Source: an uncultured Roseobacter sp. (lineage in GTDB: Bacteria > Pseudomonadota > Alphaproteobacteria > Rhodobacterales > Rhodobacteraceae). Taken from it: a DNA stretch of 64,000 nucleotides. The stretch is taken from assembly GCF_947496515.1 (NCBI RefSeq), contig NZ_CANMDB010000003.1:62001-126000 (forward strand), in the 5' to 3' direction. The notes beneath the pieces are model-generated. The model saw only the letters and a list, made by a program, of their open reading frames with translations, did no database searches and was not told the origin of the DNA. A program made the position numbers and the translations under genes. Positions 1,504 through 51,023 of the stretch are shown here, in pieces (positions within the stretch are counted from its first letter, which is position 1; every line of letters begins with the position of its first letter).

Positions 1504-3996
<2,493 letters not shown>

Positions 3997-4094: not shown

Positions 4095-4103
4095 TGTGGA
4101 TAA
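4095..4103 (-). promoter_or_regulatory. Perfect DnaA box downstream of gyrB
   Basis: TGTGGATAA on the plus strand is the exact complement of the consensus TTATCCACA. It sits alone in the gap between gyrB and the crotonase gene. A single box may be a chance match, a DnaA titration site or a remnant of an origin near recF-gyrB. Confidence 0.45.
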
Positions 4104-21860: not shown

Positions 21861-21875
21861 TTAACGGGGCATTAA
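21861..21875 (+). promoter_or_regulatory. Perfect CtrA box upstream of the DivL-like gene
   Basis: TTAA-CGGGGCA-TTAA exactly fits the full CtrA consensus TTAA-N7-TTAA, and the right half continues as TTAACCA. It lies 53 bp before the start codon at 21928. Inferred binding; such a match is rare in GC-rich DNA. Confidence 0.65.
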
Positions 21876-21927: not shown

Positions 21928-23475
21928 ATGCCTCTTTGGGACATAGCAGCAACGGTCGGCGCGGCCGCGCTTAGCACGATCGCCGCGGTGGTCTGGATCG
22001 TCCATGCGCAGCGCAAGGATCGCGCGACCCAATCGCTGGGTGCCGGGCTGGGGCGGGAAGACGGGATCTCTTTTCTCTTCGATCACGAAGATCTGCATCA
22101 TCTGTCGGACACCGCAGCGCAGCTTTACGGGCTGGTGCCGGATCACGACGACTGGCAGACGTGGCGCGCCTGTATGCTAAAGCGGTTTCCCAGCCTGCCC
22201 GAGCGTCCTTTTAACGGCGAGCAGAACCCGGTGACGCTCCAGGCACGACACCTCGAAGACACAGCAACACTCACCTTTCGGCAGAACGGCCCCTTTACCC
22301 AAGTTTACATGGACGATGACCGCACCATCAATGCGGCACAGTCACGTAAACTGCGGGTGCTGCACCGCGAGTTGGCCGATCTGCGCCGGGCCAGCGACAC
22401 CACGCCCCACGCGGTCTGGCAGGTGGATATGTCAGGCAAGGTCACCTGGCACAACGCGGCCTATGAGGATCTTTACAACCGGCTGCACAACAGCGCGCCG
22501 CTGCCTGGCAAACCGGTTTTCGAAGTATCGCAGGAACTGACGGAGAAAACCGGACGGCAGCGCGTCTCGGCGGAGGCAGCGAACGGCACACGGACGGACT
22601 GGTACGACGTCAACGCCGTCACCGTGGGCGACATCACCATTTTCCACGCGGTAGATGTGAATGCCGTGGTCAAATCCGAAGTGGCGCAGCGCAACTTTGT
22701 GCAAACCCTTGCCAAGACCTTCGCGCAACTCTCCATCGGACTCGCCATTTTTGACCGCAACGGCCAGCTAGCGCTCTTTAATCCCGCACTTATCGACCTC
22801 ACCGATCTGCCTGCGGATTTTCTCAGCGGCAGGCCAACGCTGTTGTCCTTCTTCGACAGGATGCGGGAAAACCGCCGGATGCCGGAGCCCAAGAACTACC
22901 ACTCCTGGCGGCAGGAGATCTCCGAGGTGATCGCCGCGGCAACCGATGGCCGCTATCAGGAGACATGGACGCTGGAGACGGGGCAAACCTACCGTGTCCG
23001 CGGACGACCGCACCCCGATGGGGCCATCGCCTTTCTGATCGAGGATATCAGCGCCGAAATATCCCTCACCCGCAACTTCCGGGCTGAGCTGGAGATGGGT
23101 CAATCGCTGATGGATACCTTTGATGATGCGCTTGTGGTGTTTTCATCCTCGGGTGTTCTGACATTCTGCAATGCGGCCTACCGCACGTTGTGGGGTCTGG
23201 ACCCGGACAATTCCTTTGCCGATGTAACCATTGGCGATTCCGTAAAGGCATGGAAACAGCTCTGCCGCCCCGGGGCGCGCTGGACAGCGCTGACCGATTT
23301 TGTCCACGCCTACGGCGACCGGACCGCATGGGAGATGCCCGCGACCCTCAGCGACGGCACGGGCCTTGCCTGCACCGTCTCGCGGATTGCATCGGGCGCG
23401 ACCGTCATCCGCTTTGTGCACCTAGGCGTGCAGCCGGTCGCCCGCCCCAGCACCAGACTGATCCGCCCAAGCTGA
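21928..23475 (+). CDS. Multi-PAS protein without kinase domain, DivL-like
   Basis: A 515-residue protein with one N-terminal membrane helix (about 5-26) and three PAS-like regions: about 150-230 (TPHAVWQVDMSGKVTWHNAA), 255-365 (SIGLAIFDRNGQLALFNPAL) and 390-490 (FDDALVVFSSSGVLTFCNAA). The sequence ends after the third PAS, with no H-box or HATPase domain. In Caulobacter the gene next to tsaE is divL, whose product modulates the CtrA phosphorelay; Rhodobacterales have a PAS-only version. The adjacent tsaE and the perfect CtrA box upstream support a DivL-type role, which remains an inference. Confidence 0.75.
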   Translation: MPLWDIAATVGAAALSTIAAVVWIVHAQRKDRATQSLGAGLGREDGISFLFDHEDLHHLSDTAAQLYGLVPDHDDWQTWRACMLKRFPSLPERPFNGEQNPVTLQARHLEDTATLTFRQNGPFTQVYMDDDRTINAAQSRKLRVLHRELADLRRASDTTPHAVWQVDMSGKVTWHNAAYEDLYNRLHNSAPLPGKPVFEVSQELTEKTGRQRVSAEAANGTRTDWYDVNAVTVGDITIFHAVDVNAVVKSEVAQRNFVQTLAKTFAQLSIGLAIFDRNGQLALFNPALIDLTDLPADFLSGRPTLLSFFDRMRENRRMPEPKNYHSWRQEISEVIAAATDGRYQETWTLETGQTYRVRGRPHPDGAIAFLIEDISAEISLTRNFRAELEMGQSLMDTFDDALVVFSSSGVLTFCNAAYRTLWGLDPDNSFADVTIGDSVKAWKQLCRPGARWTALTDFVHAYGDRTAWEMPATLSDGTGLACTVSRIASGATVIRFVHLGVQPVARPSTRLIRPS

Positions 23476-41811: not shown

Positions 41812-42644
41812 AGCAGCACCGCCGCGCGAGCCTCTTCATCAACCTCTGGTCGCGGACCGAACCAGCGTTCGAACCCCGGCACCGCCTGATGCAGCAACAT
41901 ACCAAGACCATCCACGGTCTTGCAGCCCCGGTCCGCAGCCTCCGCCAGCAAAGGAGTTTTTAGCGGGGTGTAAACCAGATCCGTCACCACAGTGCTTTTT
42001 TTCAACCCGTCGAGCGGTACCCGCAGCTCGGGCTTGCCCACCATGCCCAGCGACGTGGTGTTCACAACCAACGCGGCGTCCTCCAGCATGTTGCCCGCCT
42101 GCAGCCAATCCACCACGGTGACCCGATTGCCGAAGTCCGCTTGCAGTTTTTCTGCCCGGACACGGGTGCGGTTCGACAGCAGGATCTCTGGCACCCCCGC
42201 CTCCAGCAGGGAGGCGATGACCGCCCGCGCCGCACCGCCCGCACCCAGAACGGCGGCGGGGCCGCTTTTTGCCCGCCAGGCCGGTGCACCGGATCGCAGA
42301 TTCTGCAGAAATCCGTAGCCGTCCGTATTATCCGCGTGGATCTTGCCGTCGTCCCGGAAAATCAGCGTATTGGCAGCGCCGATCAGGGTCGCGCGATCGG
42401 TGATCAGATCCGCGATGCCCAGCACGGTCTCCTTGTGCGGAATGGTCACATTGACACCGACGAATCCCGCTTTGGGCAGGCTGGTCAACACGTTACGCAG
42501 GTCAGGCTCTGCCACATCCATGGGCACGTAGAAGCCTTTGACACCGTAGCGCGCCAGCCAGTGACCGTGCAGCTGTGGTGATTTGGAATGGGCAATCGGC
42601 GCACCGATGACGCCTGCCAGGGGGATCTTTTGCAGAGTGCTCAC
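41808..42644 (-). CDS. aroE: Shikimate dehydrogenase
   Basis: NADPH-dependent reduction of 3-dehydroshikimate in aromatic amino-acid synthesis. The 278-residue protein has GVIGAPIAHSKSPQLHGHWL, NVTIPHKETVL with the catalytic lysine, NTDGYGFLQNL with the catalytic aspartate, the Rossmann loop AVLGAGGAARAVIASL and the NRTR motif. The GTG at 42644 overlaps the maf stop; the frame stays open upstream but encodes no family sequence. Confidence 0.96.
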   Translation of the reverse strand: MSTLQKIPLAGVIGAPIAHSKSPQLHGHWLARYGVKGFYVPMDVAEPDLRNVLTSLPKAGFVGVNVTIPHKETVLGIADLITDRATLIGAANTLIFRDDGKIHADNTDGYGFLQNLRSGAPAWRAKSGPAAVLGAGGAARAVIASLLEAGVPEILLSNRTRVRAEKLQADFGNRVTVVDWLQAGNMLEDAALVVNTTSLGMVGKPELRVPLDGLKKSTVVTDLVYTPLKTPLLAEAADRGCKTVDGLGMLLHQAVPGFERWFGPRPEVDEEARAAVLL

Positions 42645-43240
42645 GTTTCCAGATCTCCTCGCAAGGTGAGATAAGCCAGCAGCTCCAGCAGCGGCAGGCC
42701 CAGCACGTGGAAATAGTCGCCCTCCACCCGGGTGAAGAGCCGCACGCCCTCCTCTTCGAGCTTGTAGGCTCCGACGGCGTCCCGAATGCTGTCCCAATTC
42801 CGCGTGACGTAATCGTCAATATAGGCATCCGAGGCCTTCCGCATCCGAAGCCGGACCTGACCAACGTACCGCCAGATCGGCTTACCTGCCTCGCAGATCA
42901 CCGCCGCCGACAGCAGGCTGTGCCGGTCATCGCGCAAGGCGCGCAACTGCGCCCCGGCCTCCGTCATGTCGCGCGGTTTCGATAGGATTTCACCCCGATG
43001 TTCCAGGACCTGATCGCAGCCCAATACCAGCGCGTCGGGGTGCTTTTCACTGATCTTACGCGCCTTAAGCTCGGCCAGCGCATCGGCGATGTCCCGCGGC
43101 GGGGCGTCCTCTGCCAGCAATGCGTCTCGCACCGTCTCCTCATCAACACGCGCAAGAATGACCTCGAACGCAACGGCCGCCTGCCGCAGCAGCTGCGCAC
43201 GAACGTCCGAACCAGATGCCAGAATGAAGCGCTGCACCAT
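42641..43240 (-). CDS. maf: Maf-family nucleoside triphosphate pyrophosphatase
   Basis: House-cleaning pyrophosphatase that hydrolyses modified or non-canonical NTPs. The 199-residue protein has LASGSDVRAQLLRQAAV at the N-terminus (family SxSxRR-type loop, here SGSDVRAQ), VLGCDQVLEHRGEILSKPRD with the catalytic aspartate, and YKLEEEGVRLFTRVEGDYFHVLGLPLLEL near the C-terminus. The Gln in GCDQVL suggests the YceF-like 7-methyl-GTP subgroup, which is tentative. First gene of the maf-aroE-coaE-dnaQ operon, at the edge of the candidate oriC. Confidence 0.93.
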   Translation of the reverse strand: MVQRFILASGSDVRAQLLRQAAVAFEVILARVDEETVRDALLAEDAPPRDIADALAELKARKISEKHPDALVLGCDQVLEHRGEILSKPRDMTEAGAQLRALRDDRHSLLSAAVICEAGKPIWRYVGQVRLRMRKASDAYIDDYVTRNWDSIRDAVGAYKLEEEGVRLFTRVEGDYFHVLGLPLLELLAYLTLRGDLET

Positions 43241-43643
43241 GTGAGTAAGCCTGTGAATAGCGTTAAGGGTTTCTTAATACGTTCTTCTGAGCAAATTGGC
43301 CCTGAGACGCAAGGGTGCGCCAAACCGTTAAACCGTTAACCTCTTCAGGACAGTTACACGCCTGCGTAAAAGCATAACCCAGTTCTTGTGCGTAACCACG
43401 CAGTGCCCGAGTTACACACAGGGTTATGCGAACAATGCTTCTCGAATTACTGATTTAAGCATATGAAATATAATGATAATATTTCCGCTCTGAAGGTATC
43501 CTTGCTGTGGCAAGGCATTCCTCCCCAAGGGGACAAGCGACGGACAAGCTGGTAATCCACACAGATCGCGACCCCTACAATCTCATCATACTTTTCTATC
43601 TCTTTATTAATGAATAAGAGGAAGGGACACCCGGAGGCACCCC
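43241..43643. other. Candidate chromosomal replication origin (oriC)
   Basis: A 403-bp gap between divergent maf and hemJ, unusually AT-rich around 43440-43495 and 43590-43620. Five sites match the DnaA consensus TTATNCACA with one mismatch: 43240-43248 (minus, TTACTCACA), 43252-43260 (minus, CTATTCACA), 43387-43395 (minus, TTACGCACA), 43412-43420 (plus, TTACACACA) and 43553-43561 (plus, TAATCCACA). A perfect CtrA box lies at 43263-43277, and GCATAACCC/GGGTTATGC form an inverted repeat (43372-43380, 43421-43429). The neighbouring genes are the known alphaproteobacterial oriC neighbourhood, and parAB/parS lie 3-7 kb away. Confidence 0.7.
43263..43277 (+). promoter_or_regulatory. Perfect CtrA box in the candidate origin
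   Basis: TTAA-GGGTTTC-TTAA fits TTAA-N7-TTAA exactly. It lies 3 bp from a one-mismatch DnaA box (43252-43260), the sort of neighbouring arrangement by which CtrA represses initiation in Caulobacter. Two further TTAA half-sites spaced by 4 bp lie at 43328-43339. Confidence 0.6.
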
Positions 43644-44093
43644 ATGTCTGATCTGCTCTCGCTTGCCTATCCTTGGATCAAGTCATTTCATATCATGGCC
43701 GTGATCGCCTGGATGGCCGGGTTGTTCTACCTGCCAAGGCTCTATGTCTATCACACGGAGCAGGTCGGCCAAAGTGGTGAGACCCACGCGCTTTTCCAGA
43801 CCATGGAGTTGAAGCTCCTTCGGGTGATCATGAACCCCGCGATGATTGCCACCTGGGTTCTGGGTTTGTGTCTGGTGGCGACGCCGGGGATCGTCACCTG
43901 GGATACGGTCTGGCCCTGGACAAAGGCAGCCGGGGTGCTGGGCATGACCTGGTTTCACCATTGGCTGGGGCTGCGTCGAAAAGATTTTCTGCGGGGAGAG
44001 AACACGCTCACGGGTCGTCAGTACCGAATGATGAACGAGGTGCCCACCCTGCTGATGGTCGTCATCGTGCTGTCTGTCGTAGTGCGTTTCTGA
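43644..44093 (+). CDS. hemJ: Protoporphyrinogen oxidase HemJ
   Basis: Heme-containing membrane enzyme that oxidises protoporphyrinogen IX to protoporphyrin IX. A 149-residue protein with four membrane helices; the conserved histidine in WIKSFHIMAVIAWMAGLFYLP (heme ligand) and the conserved lysine/arginine region after it are present, as are MTWFHHWLGLRRKDF and NEVPTLLMVVIVL. It lies beside oriC as in other Rhodobacterales and related orders, here without hemE between it and the origin. Confidence 0.92.
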   Translation: MSDLLSLAYPWIKSFHIMAVIAWMAGLFYLPRLYVYHTEQVGQSGETHALFQTMELKLLRVIMNPAMIATWVLGLCLVATPGIVTWDTVWPWTKAAGVLGMTWFHHWLGLRRKDFLRGENTLTGRQYRMMNEVPTLLMVVIVLSVVVRF

Positions 44094-46844: not shown

Positions 46845-48716
46845 GTGTTTCACGTGAAACATTTTGATGTGGTGGTGATCGGTGGTGGTCACGCAGGCAC
46901 TGAGGCAGCGCATGCCGCAGCCCGAATGGGTGTGCGGACCGCGCTTGTGACAATGTCGGAGAGCGACATTGGCGTGATGTCTTGCAATCCTGCCATTGGT
47001 GGGTTGGGCAAGGGGCATCTTGTCCGGGAGATCGATGCGCTGGACGGGGTGATGGCTCGTGTAGCGGATAAAGCCGGTATTCAGTTTCGCTTGCTCAACC
47101 GTCGAAAAGGGCCGGCGGTGCAAGGGCCTCGTGCCCAGGCAGACCGCGATGTATATCGTCATACCATGCTGGCGGAGACTCGGGCTCAGTCAAACCTGGC
47201 GATCGTAACCGGAGAGGTAGTCGATTTTCGCGTGAAAGGCGGTGCTATCGCGGGCGTGGTTCTGAAAGATGGGACCCAACTTGAGGCGACGCGGGTCATT
47301 CTGACCAGCGGCACCTTTCTAAGGGGTGTGGTACACATTGGTGATATTGCCCGGTCTGGTGGTCGGTTTGGTGAAGAGGCGTCTGTGCGGTTGGCCGAGC
47401 GGATTGATGACTTCGGATTGCCACTTGGTCGGTTGAAGACCGGTACGCCACCTCGCTTGGACGGTAGGACCATTCGCTGGGATCTGCTGGAGGATCAACC
47501 TGGTGATGACGATCCAACCTTTTTCTCCTTTCTGACCCGTGAAACGAGTGCGCGTCAGGTTTCCTGCGGCATCACCCACACCAACGAGCTTACACATCAA
47601 ATCATCCGGGAGAATCTCGAGCGCTCTGCAATGTACGGAGGCCATATCGACGGGGTTGGGCCTCGGTATTGCCCGTCAATTGAAGACAAGATTGTTCGGT
47701 TCGCCGATAAGGATTCACACCAGATCTTTCTGGAACCTGAGGGGTTGAAAAGTGATCTGATCTATCCCAATGGTATTTCGACGTCGCTACCACAAGATGT
47801 GCAGGAAAGCTACGTCCGGTCCATATATGGGTTGGAACAGGCGGTGATCGTACAGCCGGGCTATGCGATCGAGTATGATTACGTTGATCCGCGTGCGTTG
47901 GATGCGACATTGGCTTTGCCGACGGTCAAGGGCCTGTACCTCGCGGGACAGGTAAACGGCACCACCGGGTATGAGGAGGCAGCCGCCCAAGGGATGGTGG
48001 CCGGGTTGAACGCGGCGCGGGACGTGCAGGGTGGTGAGCCAGTGATCTTCTCGCGTTCCGACAGTTATATCGGGGTAATGGTTGATGATCTCACCACGCG
48101 TGGTGTCACCGAGCCCTACCGCATGTTCACGTCTCGGGCGGAATTCCGACTGTCTTTGCGGGTCGACAACGCTGATCAGCGGCTGACGCCGACTGGGATT
48201 ACGCTTGGTTGTGTGGGTCAGCGGCGATCGGAAGTCTTAGAGGACAAGATGGCGCGTCTGGATAGTGGGCGACATGCGTTGAGTGAGCAGACGTTTACGC
48301 CATCGCAAGTGTCTGCCGTTGGGATCCGGATAAATCAGGACGGATCAAAGCGGACCGGGATGCAGCTTTTGGCGTTTCCCGATGTCAGTTTCGCTGAGAT
48401 TGAGCGGCTGGATCCGCGCTTCAGTGCAATCGATGGGGAGATACAGCGGCAATTGGAGCGAGAAGCGCTCTATGCCAATTACATCGAGCGACAGCAGCGG
48501 GATATTGAAGCGTTGCGGCGGGATGAGGCGCATGTCATCCCGACAGACTTCGACTTTGCGGCGTTGAATGGTCTGTCGAGTGAGCTCAGGGCGAAGTTGA
48601 CCACGACCCGGCCGGGATCCTTGGCGCAAGCAGCTCGGATTGACGGGATGACCCCTGCCGCTTTAACGCTCATCTTGGCACGTTTACGCCAGAGATCAGG
48701 GAAGCAGTCCGCGTGA
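46845..48716 (+). CDS. mnmG: tRNA uridine-5-carboxymethylaminomethyl synthesis enzyme MnmG (GidA)
   Basis: FAD enzyme partner of MnmE. A 623-residue protein: FAD-binding [89 protein letters not shown], and a C-terminal helical domain. The GTG start at 46845 reads straight through a perfect parS palindrome, giving the N-terminus MFHVKHFD; the same coding solution is common in alphaproteobacteria. Compared with its neighbours it uses many GGT, TTG and GAT codons. Its stop overlaps the rsmG start (GTGA). Confidence 0.96.
46846..46861. promoter_or_regulatory. parS centromere site 1 (in the mnmG start)
   Basis: TGTTTCACGTGAAACA matches the 16-bp parS consensus perfectly and is a complete palindrome. 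It overlaps the first six codons of mnmG. ParB, encoded 3.3 kb downstream, is expected to load here. Confidence 0.95.
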
Positions 48717-49318
48717 CAGCTTGGCGACCGGATGTTTCACGTGAAACATCTGATAAACTGACGTGTTATCACGATCTCTTGCTGACGTGGACACAGAAGA
48801 TTAACTTGATCTCCAAATCCAGTGTCCCTGATATCTGGCACCGCCATATCTGGGATTCGTCACAAGTGATTTCCTGGATCGCGGGTCGGCAGCACTGGGT
48901 TGATCTGGGAAGCGGCGGTGGTCTGCCCGGTCTGATCGTCGCGATCCTTGGTCAGGAAATTGAACCGGATCTGACGGTCACAATGATTGAAAGCGATGTG
49001 CGAAAGGCGACTTTCCTGCGTAAGGTCATCCGGGAACTTGGCTTAAAGGCGACTGTCATCGTTGACCGGATTGAAGCGGCGCCCGCGCAGAACGGAGATG
49101 TTGTCTCCGCACGTGCTCTGGCTGATCTGACACAGCTACTGGGTCTCGGGCAAAGGCATGTGTCCTCTGGTGGGACGCTATTGTTTCTGAAGGGTGCCAA
49201 CTGGAAAAAAGAGGTAGAAGCCGCGCGTGAGGCGTGGTCATTTGACCTGGTGGCCCATAAGAGTAAAACGAACGCGGAGGCAGCTGTGCTGGAGGTGAGG
49301 GGTATTGAACGTGTCTGA
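48713..49318 (+). CDS. rsmG: 16S rRNA (guanine-527 N7) methyltransferase RsmG (GidB)
   Basis: Methylates N7 of G527 in 16S rRNA; loss gives low-level streptomycin resistance in many bacteria. The 201-residue protein has [21 protein letters not shown] and [12 protein letters not shown], the SAM loop [19 protein letters not shown] and [12 protein letters not shown]. Residues DVSRETS (7-13) are encoded by the second parS palindrome, a telling hallmark. GTG start overlaps mnmG; parA begins inside its 3' end. Confidence 0.95.
48733..48748. promoter_or_regulatory. parS centromere site 2 (in the rsmG start)
   Basis: A second perfect TGTTTCACGTGAAACA, 1,887 bp from site 1 and 562 bp before parA. It is translated as VSRET in rsmG. 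Confidence 0.95.
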
Positions 49319-50120
49319 TATCGCACCGCCAAATGGTCCCAAGATCATCGCCGTGGCGAACCAGAAAGGTGGTGTGGGAAAGACCACAACCACCATTAAT
49401 CTGGCGGCAGCGCTGGCCGAAGAGGGTAGTCAGGTCCTTGTTGTGGATCTCGATCCGCAAGGCAATGCCTCCACTGGGCTGGGGATTGAGGTCGAGGATC
49501 GGAGGTATACGACCTATGATCTTTTGCTGGGCGATACAGAGCTATCCTCGATCATCCTGCCGACAGAGACGCCTGGATTGTCCATTATTCCGGCAACGGT
49601 TGATCTGAGCTCTGCCGATATCGAATTGATTTCAAACGAAAAACGTAGCTTTTTGCTGCACGATGCGCTTCGTCAGCCAGCCATTGGGCCCTTTGGGCTG
49701 GACTATATCCTGATTGACTGCCCGCCCTCGCTCAATCTGCTGACAGTCAACGCCATGATTGCGGCGCATTCCGTGCTGGTGCCGCTCCAAAGCGAGTTCT
49801 TTGCGCTGGAGGGGCTTTCGCAGCTCATGCTCACGATCCGAGAGGTTCGGTACAGCGGTAATCAGGATCTGAGGATCGAGGGGATCGTGCTGACCATGTA
49901 TGATAGCCGGAACAATCTGTCGTTGCAGGTAGAGCAGGACGCGCGGGACAACTTGGGTGATCTGGTTTTCGCAACACGGATCCCGAGAAACGTGCGGGTC
50001 AGCGAGGCGCCGTCCTTTGCCATGCCCGTGCTGCGATATGATACGATGTCCAAGGGCGCACAGGCCTACCGGGCGCTGGCGCAGGAAGTCCTGAGCAAAA
50101 ACGCGGCGGCAGTGGGGTAG
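49311..50120 (+). CDS. parA: Chromosome partitioning ATPase ParA
   Basis: Walker-type ATPase that moves ParB-parS complexes. The 269-residue protein has the deviant Walker [22 protein letters not shown]' segment [14 protein letters not shown], Walker [18 protein letters not shown] and the DNA-binding basic C-terminal half. I chose GTG at 49311 ([11 protein letters not shown]); a TTG at 49305 with GGAGG nine bases upstream is an alternative adding two residues. Overlaps the rsmG end by 8 nt; parB follows after 6 bp. Confidence 0.96.
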
Positions 50121-50126
50121 ATCAAG

Positions 50127-51023
50127 ATGGCGGGTGGTATGGATCGGAAACGTGGGCTCGGCCGGGGGCTGTCGGCGCTGATGTCTGACGTGGCGGAGAC
50201 GGAGCGGAGCACCAGCGCGGGCCAAGCAACGGCGGACCGTCTCATTCCGATTGAAAAGATCGCTCCGAACCCGGACCAGCCGCGCAAACGGTTCGCCGAA
50301 GCCGATCTGAAGGACCTCGCCGCGTCCATTCGTGAAAAGGGTGTTCTGCAACCTCTGATTGTGCGGGTGGTTGGCCCGGAACGGTACGAAATCGTCGCGG
50401 GGGAACGGCGTTGGCGCGCAGCGCAGCTGGCCAATCAGCACGAATTGCCGGTGGTGATCCGGGACTTCACGGACGCTGAGGTGCTCGAGGTCGCGATCAT
50501 CGAGAACATCCAGCGGGCAGATCTGAACCCGATTGAAGAGGCAGCAGGCTACCGGCAGTTGATGGAGCGGTTCGGTCACACCCAGGAAAAACTGGCCGAA
50601 GCGCTTGGAAAGAGCCGCAGCCATATTGCCAACCTGATGCGGTTGCTGAGCCTGCCGGAGGACGTGTTGGATTTTGTTCGCCAAGGAGATCTGAGTGCGG
50701 GTCATGCGCGGGCGTTGATCCCGGCGACGGACCGGGTGGCGCTGGCGCAAGAGGTGATCAAGGGCGGTTTGTCGGTGCGCGCGACCGAGGCGCTGGTCAA
50801 GAAACACATCGCTGGCGACACCGGGCCAGATGTGCGCCGTACGGCAGCGCCGGTTGAGGAAAAGGACGCGGATACCAAGGCGCTCGAGGGGGATCTCTCC
50901 GCTGCTTTGGGTATGAAGGTGACGTTGGATCATGCGCCGGGCGGTGAAGGTGGCCGGATGACGTTGCAGTACAAATCGCTTGACCAGCTCGATGAGCTGT
51001 GCCGCTTGCTGGGCGGATCCTAA
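50127..51023 (+). CDS. parB: Chromosome partitioning protein ParB
   Basis: CTP-dependent DNA clamp that loads at parS. The 298-residue protein has an N-terminal ParA-activating segment (KRGLGRGLSALMSD), the CTPase motifs NPDQPRKRF and GERRWRAAQ (residues 92-100), ENIQRADLNPIEEA, a helix-turn-helix (EKLAEALGKSRSHIANLMRLL, about 152-172) and a C-terminal dimerisation domain. Its end overlaps the 3' end of convergent hemW by 4 bp. Both cognate parS sites lie upstream in the same gene cluster. Confidence 0.97.
   Translation: MAGGMDRKRGLGRGLSALMSDVAETERSTSAGQATADRLIPIEKIAPNPDQPRKRFAEADLKDLAASIREKGVLQPLIVRVVGPERYEIVAGERRWRAAQLANQHELPVVIRDFTDAEVLEVAIIENIQRADLNPIEEAAGYRQLMERFGHTQEKLAEALGKSRSHIANLMRLLSLPEDVLDFVRQGDLSAGHARALIPATDRVALAQEVIKGGLSVRATEALVKKHIAGDTGPDVRRTAAPVEEKDADTKALEGDLSAALGMKVTLDHAPGGEGGRMTLQYKSLDQLDELCRLLGGS

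Follow-up and report, generated by a model that had tools for sequence, protein, structure and literature searches.

A 403-bp gap separates the divergent genes maf and hemJ in the stretch of DNA analysed here, a window of 64,000 nucleotides that spans C3:62001-126000, i.e. part of the 365-kb contig C3 of a 4.93-Mb draft genome in 61 contigs. The nearest named relatives of the HemJ encoded in the window are Roseobacter strains. The genes and sites on which the analysis rests are the following, in window coordinates:

42641..43240, minus strand: maf (PF02545)
43241..43643: maf-hemJ intergenic gap, 403 bp, between divergent genes; candidate oriC
43240..43248, minus strand: DnaA box TTACTCACA, at the maf start codon; GTGGATAA in several relatives
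43252..43260, minus strand: weak DnaA box CTATTCACA; its CCTGTG core is largely retained in the genus
43263..43277: perfect CtrA box TTAAGGGTTTCTTAA, starting 22 bp from the maf start codon
43372..43380, minus strand: left arm of an inverted repeat, GCATAACCC, with a TTATGC half-box on the minus strand
43387..43395, minus strand: DnaA box TTACGCACA, left member of an inverted pair
43412..43420, plus strand: DnaA box TTACACACA, the pair's right member; 16 bp separate the two boxes
43421..43429, plus strand: right arm of the inverted repeat, GGGTTATGC, with a TTATGC half-box; GGTTATCC or CTTATCC in several relatives
43441..43480: AT-rich tract (23% GC) that surrounds the IHF-like site
43456..43468, plus strand: IHF-like site TAAGCATATGAAA, which on inspection departs from YAANNNNTTGATW at two positions
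43553..43561, plus strand: DnaA box TAATCCACA, proposed box of an unwinding module
43573..43578, plus strand: CCCTAC element, at the GC-cluster position of the unwinding module; conserved in relatives
43581..43620: AT-rich stretch (25% GC), where unwinding is proposed to begin; ends ~24 bp before hemJ
43582..43596, plus strand: five NTN triplets CTC ATC ATA CTT TTC, DnaA-trio-like, with the central A on the minus strand
43644..44093, plus strand: hemJ (PF03653)
46846..46861: perfect parS TGTTTCACGTGAAACA, 3.2 kb from the gap
48733..48748: perfect parS TGTTTCACGTGAAACA, 5.1 kb from the gap
49305..51023, plus strand: parA-like and parB-like genes

Pfam and NCBIfam models place dnaQ, coaE, aroE and maf on one side of the gap, and hemJ, rho, mnmE, mnmG and rsmG, followed by the ParA-like and ParB-like genes, on the other, such that the gap occupies the slot of the ordered locus dnaQ-coaE-aroE-maf/hemJ-rho-mnmEG-rsmG-parAB. 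These flanks are those given in a preliminary description of the locus, except that the parAB pair named there holds in part: the ParB-like protein scores over the ParB domain cut-off and the ParA-like protein below the ParA equivalog cut-off. The same description had remarked that hemE and the DUF299 gene do not adjoin the gap. Indeed, hemE is located on contig C2, and a family search for DUF299 (Kinase-PPPase) gave no match anywhere in the genome; the gap lacks the direct flanks of the alphaproteobacterial hemE-type origin. Again as described, gyrB (1513-3996) is ~39 kb from the gap. The dnaA gene is encoded on the same contig, ~46 kb distant. Directly after gyrB there is a lone perfect DnaA box TTATCCACA (4095-4103), the only perfect one in the window, with no cluster around it. 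A plasmid search with the gap region gave five short matches in maf and hemJ (at most 7% of the query) and none within the gap.

The five DnaA boxes listed above match TTATNCACA with at most one mismatch and fall within 322 bp. In 1000 dinucleotide shuffles of the gap, this number was never reached (mean 0.4, largest 3), and the densest 400-bp stretch outside the gap, across the whole 365-kb contig, has two such boxes. The result depends on the consensus. With the strict E. coli box TTATCCACA as reference, the box at 43553 is the sole one-mismatch match and none is perfect; a strict scan of the window yields 8 matches where 5.1 are expected, and the gap does not stand out by it: the cluster exceeds chance with TTATNCACA and not with the E. 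coli box alone. The inverted repeat brackets the inverted pair 43387/43412, spaced by 16 bp, and the pattern for this pair has a single match in the genome, in the gap. The two AT-rich tracts lie in a window whose 1-kb bins range from 54 to 69% GC. Hence, the features that had been read from the sequence at the outset—five one-mismatch boxes in ~320 bp (relative to TTATNCACA), a 9-bp inverted repeat, a perfect CtrA box, and local AT-rich tracts—were all recovered. CcrM sites (GANTC) are absent from the gap, and in the gaps of relatives they are not enriched (1.2 vs 1.5 in shuffles).

The minimum of the cumulative GC skew of the 365-kb contig is at window position 43756, 113 bp past the gap. 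Its location had been set beforehand as the refuting test for the origin assignment, and on the contig bearing both dnaA and the gap the minimum is found by the gap, not by dnaA. The T-A skew extremes of the contig are elsewhere. A single-step fit of the skew put the change point at window 292335, and the skew maximum of the contig is at C3:160866; since a single step fails to describe the skew of this contig, we relied only on the minimum. A sharp second change in GC skew occurs near C3:160866 (window ~98866, outside the window), ~55 kb to the right of the gap, and is perhaps a rearrangement or an island. The switch seen at the contig level in the host genome was also sampled in three relatives assembled in one long contig, where the sign of the skew fits an origin at hemJ in 17/19, 18/19, and 16/18 of the sampled 20-kb stretches. 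At this coarse sampling, the switch was best placed at 2660-2700 kb in G016 (hemJ at 2702 kb), at 3410-3430 kb in G021 (hemJ at 3477 kb, ~47-67 kb off), and in an interval wrapping coordinate 0 in G009 (hemJ at 78 kb); these intervals fit an origin located at hemJ or up to some tens of kb from it. At a finer scale, 66 of 80 named loci of relatives were long enough (20-kb loci) to locate a skew minimum; it is within 1 kb of hemJ in 37 of them, inside the gap or hemJ in 16, by the left edge of the locus in 18, and by the right edge in 4. Divergent transcription alone could be the source of a local skew switch at the gap. The two perfect parS sites provide a further landmark, being the only ones in the 4.93-Mb genome at up to one mismatch. 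Among the same 66 loci, 64 have at least one perfect parS and 58 have exactly two.

The organisation of the gap is conserved in relatives. A scan of their contigs retained 80 of 524, and we analysed 109 loci (L022-L130), of which 106 have a divergent maf-hemJ gap; the other three (L041, L047, L105) were dropped for want of a usable maf match. Together with the window these make 107 gaps, or 95 once identical ones are removed, with lengths of 357-478 bp. They contain on average 3.4 DnaA boxes, vs 0.42 in shuffles, and only five have one box or none. Boxes occur at preferred positions of the gap, i.e. ~0-30, 140-150, and 280-310 for minus-strand boxes, and 170-200 and 310-340 for plus-strand ones. 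An inverted pair (up to one mismatch per box) is present in 60 of the 95 gaps vs 3% of shuffles, and those pairs that start at gap position 115-170 are most often spaced by 16 bp, the same as in the window. On the plus strand, 64/95 gaps vs 23% of dinucleotide shuffles have an IHF-like site (at most one mismatch), which in the gaps is mostly ~180-220 bp before hemJ; there is no excess on the minus strand (26/95 gaps vs 26% of shuffles). Our first regular expression for IHF had no match in the window, and the site at 43456-43468 emerged only via the relatives. The sequence between boxes is largely divergent, even inside the genus. The relatives are not independent, and these counts therefore overstate the statistics.

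More distant genomes show the slot with other neighbours. Of 17 genomes from other families of the class that have a HemJ match, we examined seven. DUF299 adjoins the slot in six of these outgroups (Pfam), L197 having none in the slot, and hemE does so in six as well (tblastn, two confirmed by Pfam); in L194 a ferrochelatase gene replaces it. In every outgroup but L194, i.e. six of the seven, the DnaA boxes of the 20-kb stretch cluster most densely between DUF299 (or maf) and hemE. The agreement is weak in L193, which has two boxes only, and in L192, where two of three boxes are inside the longest reading of the DUF299 frame; in L197 the outer boxes overlap the edges of maf and hemE. Within the family, a HemJ search matched 278 of 295 genomes, some weakly. 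Three Rhodobacteraceae members without a close HemJ (L207, L208, L209) have the gap between maf and rho, and their best HemJ match is 26-30% identical and located elsewhere. Among these maf/rho gaps, that of G027 retains the CtrA box, TAATCCACA, and the CCCTAC/ATCATC block, that of G020 retains one box, and that of G029 two, one of them near rho. Since the hemJ-side block is retained in G027, it is not a hemJ promoter, at least in this genome. Together, these patterns suggest that the slot is fixed whilst its neighbours change: DUF299 and hemE in most outgroups seen, maf and hemJ in the Rhodobacteraceae loci seen, and maf and rho in the three genomes lacking a close HemJ.

The hemJ-proximal part of the gap carries elements that resemble the basal unwinding system (BUS), imperfectly so in the window. 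TAATCCACA is identical in 19/19 gaps of the genus and in 40/95 overall, 86-106 bp before hemJ, and ATCATC occurs in 73/95 gaps vs 14% of shuffles. The latter is present in 18 of the 19 genus gaps, the window being the exception as it reads CTCATCATA. The DnaA-trio of BUS is [G/A]A[T/A], and the triplets here differ from it in reading ATC on the box strand. With the B. subtilis system this module shares a DnaA box, a spacer with a GC-rich part, and central-A triplet repeats; the published description sets the spacer to at most 16 bp, vs 20 bp here, and includes an optional second DnaA box, of which we found none in the window (PMC8287927). We searched with a rule requiring a box with up to two mismatches, a spacer of 0-16 bp, and at least three NAN trios. 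The spacer of 20 bp means that the proposed module of the window does not conform to this published rule; one plus-strand spot (3 trios) and one minus-strand spot (4 trios) elsewhere in the window do. On the plus strand, the rule matches 56/95 gaps vs 16% of shuffles; when the spacer is extended to 22 bp it matches 86/95 vs 22%, and with at least five trios in addition 53/95 vs 2%. A second abutting tandem box at 8-10 bp is present in 23/95 gaps vs 4% of shuffles, is absent from the window, and occurs in one of the 19 genus gaps (L037). We rejected a tandem second box at 11-13 bp (3/95 gaps vs 5% of shuffles). When 59 genomes were scanned with a pattern for the hemJ-side block, three gave one match each, next to maf or hemJ; by inspection, Roseobacter members miss this form by about two bases, and we did not count it as evidence.

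The window contains two CtrA boxes vs 0.03 expected. The second perfect box (21861-21875) is ~50 bp upstream of the gene of a PAS-domain protein (21928-23475), which could be DivL-like, a guess from context. In relatives, the CtrA box of the gap recurs at gap position 18-28, where it is perfect in 15/95 gaps and has one mismatch in 8/95, compared with 0 and 1 at the control position. It is conserved in position mainly inside the genus: 12 of 19 genus gaps have it perfect and 17 with at most one mismatch, vs 6 of the 76 gaps beyond the genus (up to one mismatch); it is perfect in G027 too. The genome has ten OmpR-type matches, and among the seven retrieved, one (L211) has CtrA as its best PDB match, over the receiver domain. 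Hence, as expected for a CtrA-controlled origin, the gap has the TTAA-N7-TTAA motif and the genome encodes a CtrA protein. A close studied parallel is Cori of Caulobacter crescentus (hemE-COG1806/DUF299), with which the gap has in common the alphaproteobacterial locus type, DnaA boxes, CtrA boxes, and an AT-rich region; the IHF site of Cori has a candidate counterpart in the imperfect IHF-like site here (PMC1914354, PMC4285127). The two differ in their flanks (hemE/DUF299 vs maf/hemJ), in the number of CtrA sites—one full box here vs the five binding sites described for Cori (PMC1914354, PMC4285127)—and in the IHF-like site, which here does not overlap the CtrA box, unlike what is described for Cori.

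These observations lead us to conclude that the maf-hemJ gap, 43241-43643, is with high probability the chromosomal oriC of Roseobacter type, as first proposed from its sequence. The DnaA cluster, the skew minimum of the contig, the only parS sites of the genome, the synteny with outgroups, and the conservation of positions all argue for it. Against it one can cite the weakness of the boxes (none perfect), the skew offsets in G021 and G009, the scattered skew minima of the 20-kb loci, and the few boxes in G020 and G029. Could the gap instead be a mere divergent promoter region, where DnaA and CtrA sites regulate maf and hemJ, with the origin elsewhere? Two divergent genes need promoters, the CtrA site is 22 bp from the maf start codon, and the AT-rich block stops ~24 bp before hemJ. 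Yet, G027 retains the hemJ-side block beside rho where there is no hemJ, in outgroups the corresponding slot, flanked by other genes, also has a DnaA cluster, and it is in or close to the gap that the contig has its skew minimum, its parS sites, and its densest DnaA cluster, which makes this explanation very improbable. Many other bacteria have their origin beside dnaA or gyrB. Such a location would fit the presence of dnaA ~46 kb off on the same contig and of the window's only perfect DnaA box (4095) just after gyrB, and we regard it as more improbable still, because boxes do not cluster around dnaA (C3:56000-64000 has a single box at up to one mismatch) and the skew minimum of the contig is not at dnaA.

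Accepting the gap as the origin leaves two readings of its CtrA box. The one we lean slightly towards is that the box serves the transcription of the maf operon and has no role in replication: it is placed just upstream of maf, is at this position in only 6/76 gaps beyond the genus, and CtrA is described as non-essential in the Rhodobacterales tested (PMC4046655; PMC8116508). On the other hand, the box keeps a fixed distance to the two DnaA boxes next to it and is retained, with up to one mismatch, in 17/19 gaps of the genus, and an influence of CtrA on replication has been reported in some Rhodobacterales (PMC8116508). A more speculative and rather doubtful possibility is that CtrA directly gates initiation in Roseobacter via a single conserved box next to the maf-side DnaA boxes, even if dispensable for growth in the order, and that the Rhodobacteraceae origin melts via a variant unwinding module, with ATC trios on the box strand and, in place of the second DnaA box missing in most Roseobacter, a spacer of 20 bp.

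Under the origin assignment, the layout of the sites suggests how initiation might proceed, a scheme in which DnaA loading, IHF bending, and unwinding are deduced from the sequence. The maf-side and central boxes would take up DnaA, among them the inverted pair 43387/43412 with its flanking TTATGC half-boxes, and IHF would bend the DNA at 43456-43468. From the box at 43553, DnaA might then move on to the NTN triplets (43582-43596) and melt the AT-rich stretch up to ~43620, where the helicase would be loaded and from which forks would depart in both directions. ParB bound at the two parS sites would then segregate the new origins. CtrA~P at the site beside the maf-side boxes could block early DnaA loading, and this is the least certain step.

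Origins have been predicted before in this family. Kopejtka et al. 2019 used Ori-Finder in Rhodobacteraceae and assigned origins in 101/109 strains from the minimum of GC disparity, DnaA boxes, the local GC minimum, and the proximity of parAB (PMC6699656), a pair of genes that serves as an ori marker in the group (PMC6699656, PMC8116508), and the oriC used for D. shibae came from DoriC, with GC skew as a check (PMC6473078). The main text of the former study does not employ the terms maf or hemE, and its passages on origins do not describe the anatomy set out here (PMC6699656); in the open-access literature, we found no title on the internal anatomy of a Rhodobacteraceae origin as given here. 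Because of these earlier predictions by Ori-Finder and DoriC, the gap is best seen as an origin of an already known kind, with some detail that we did not find in print. Our analysis narrows the probable origin of the Roseobacter chromosome to a 403-bp gap, whose conserved parts make a short list of sites for mutation. The CtrA box within it allows one to ask whether a non-essential CtrA still touches replication in Rhodobacterales.
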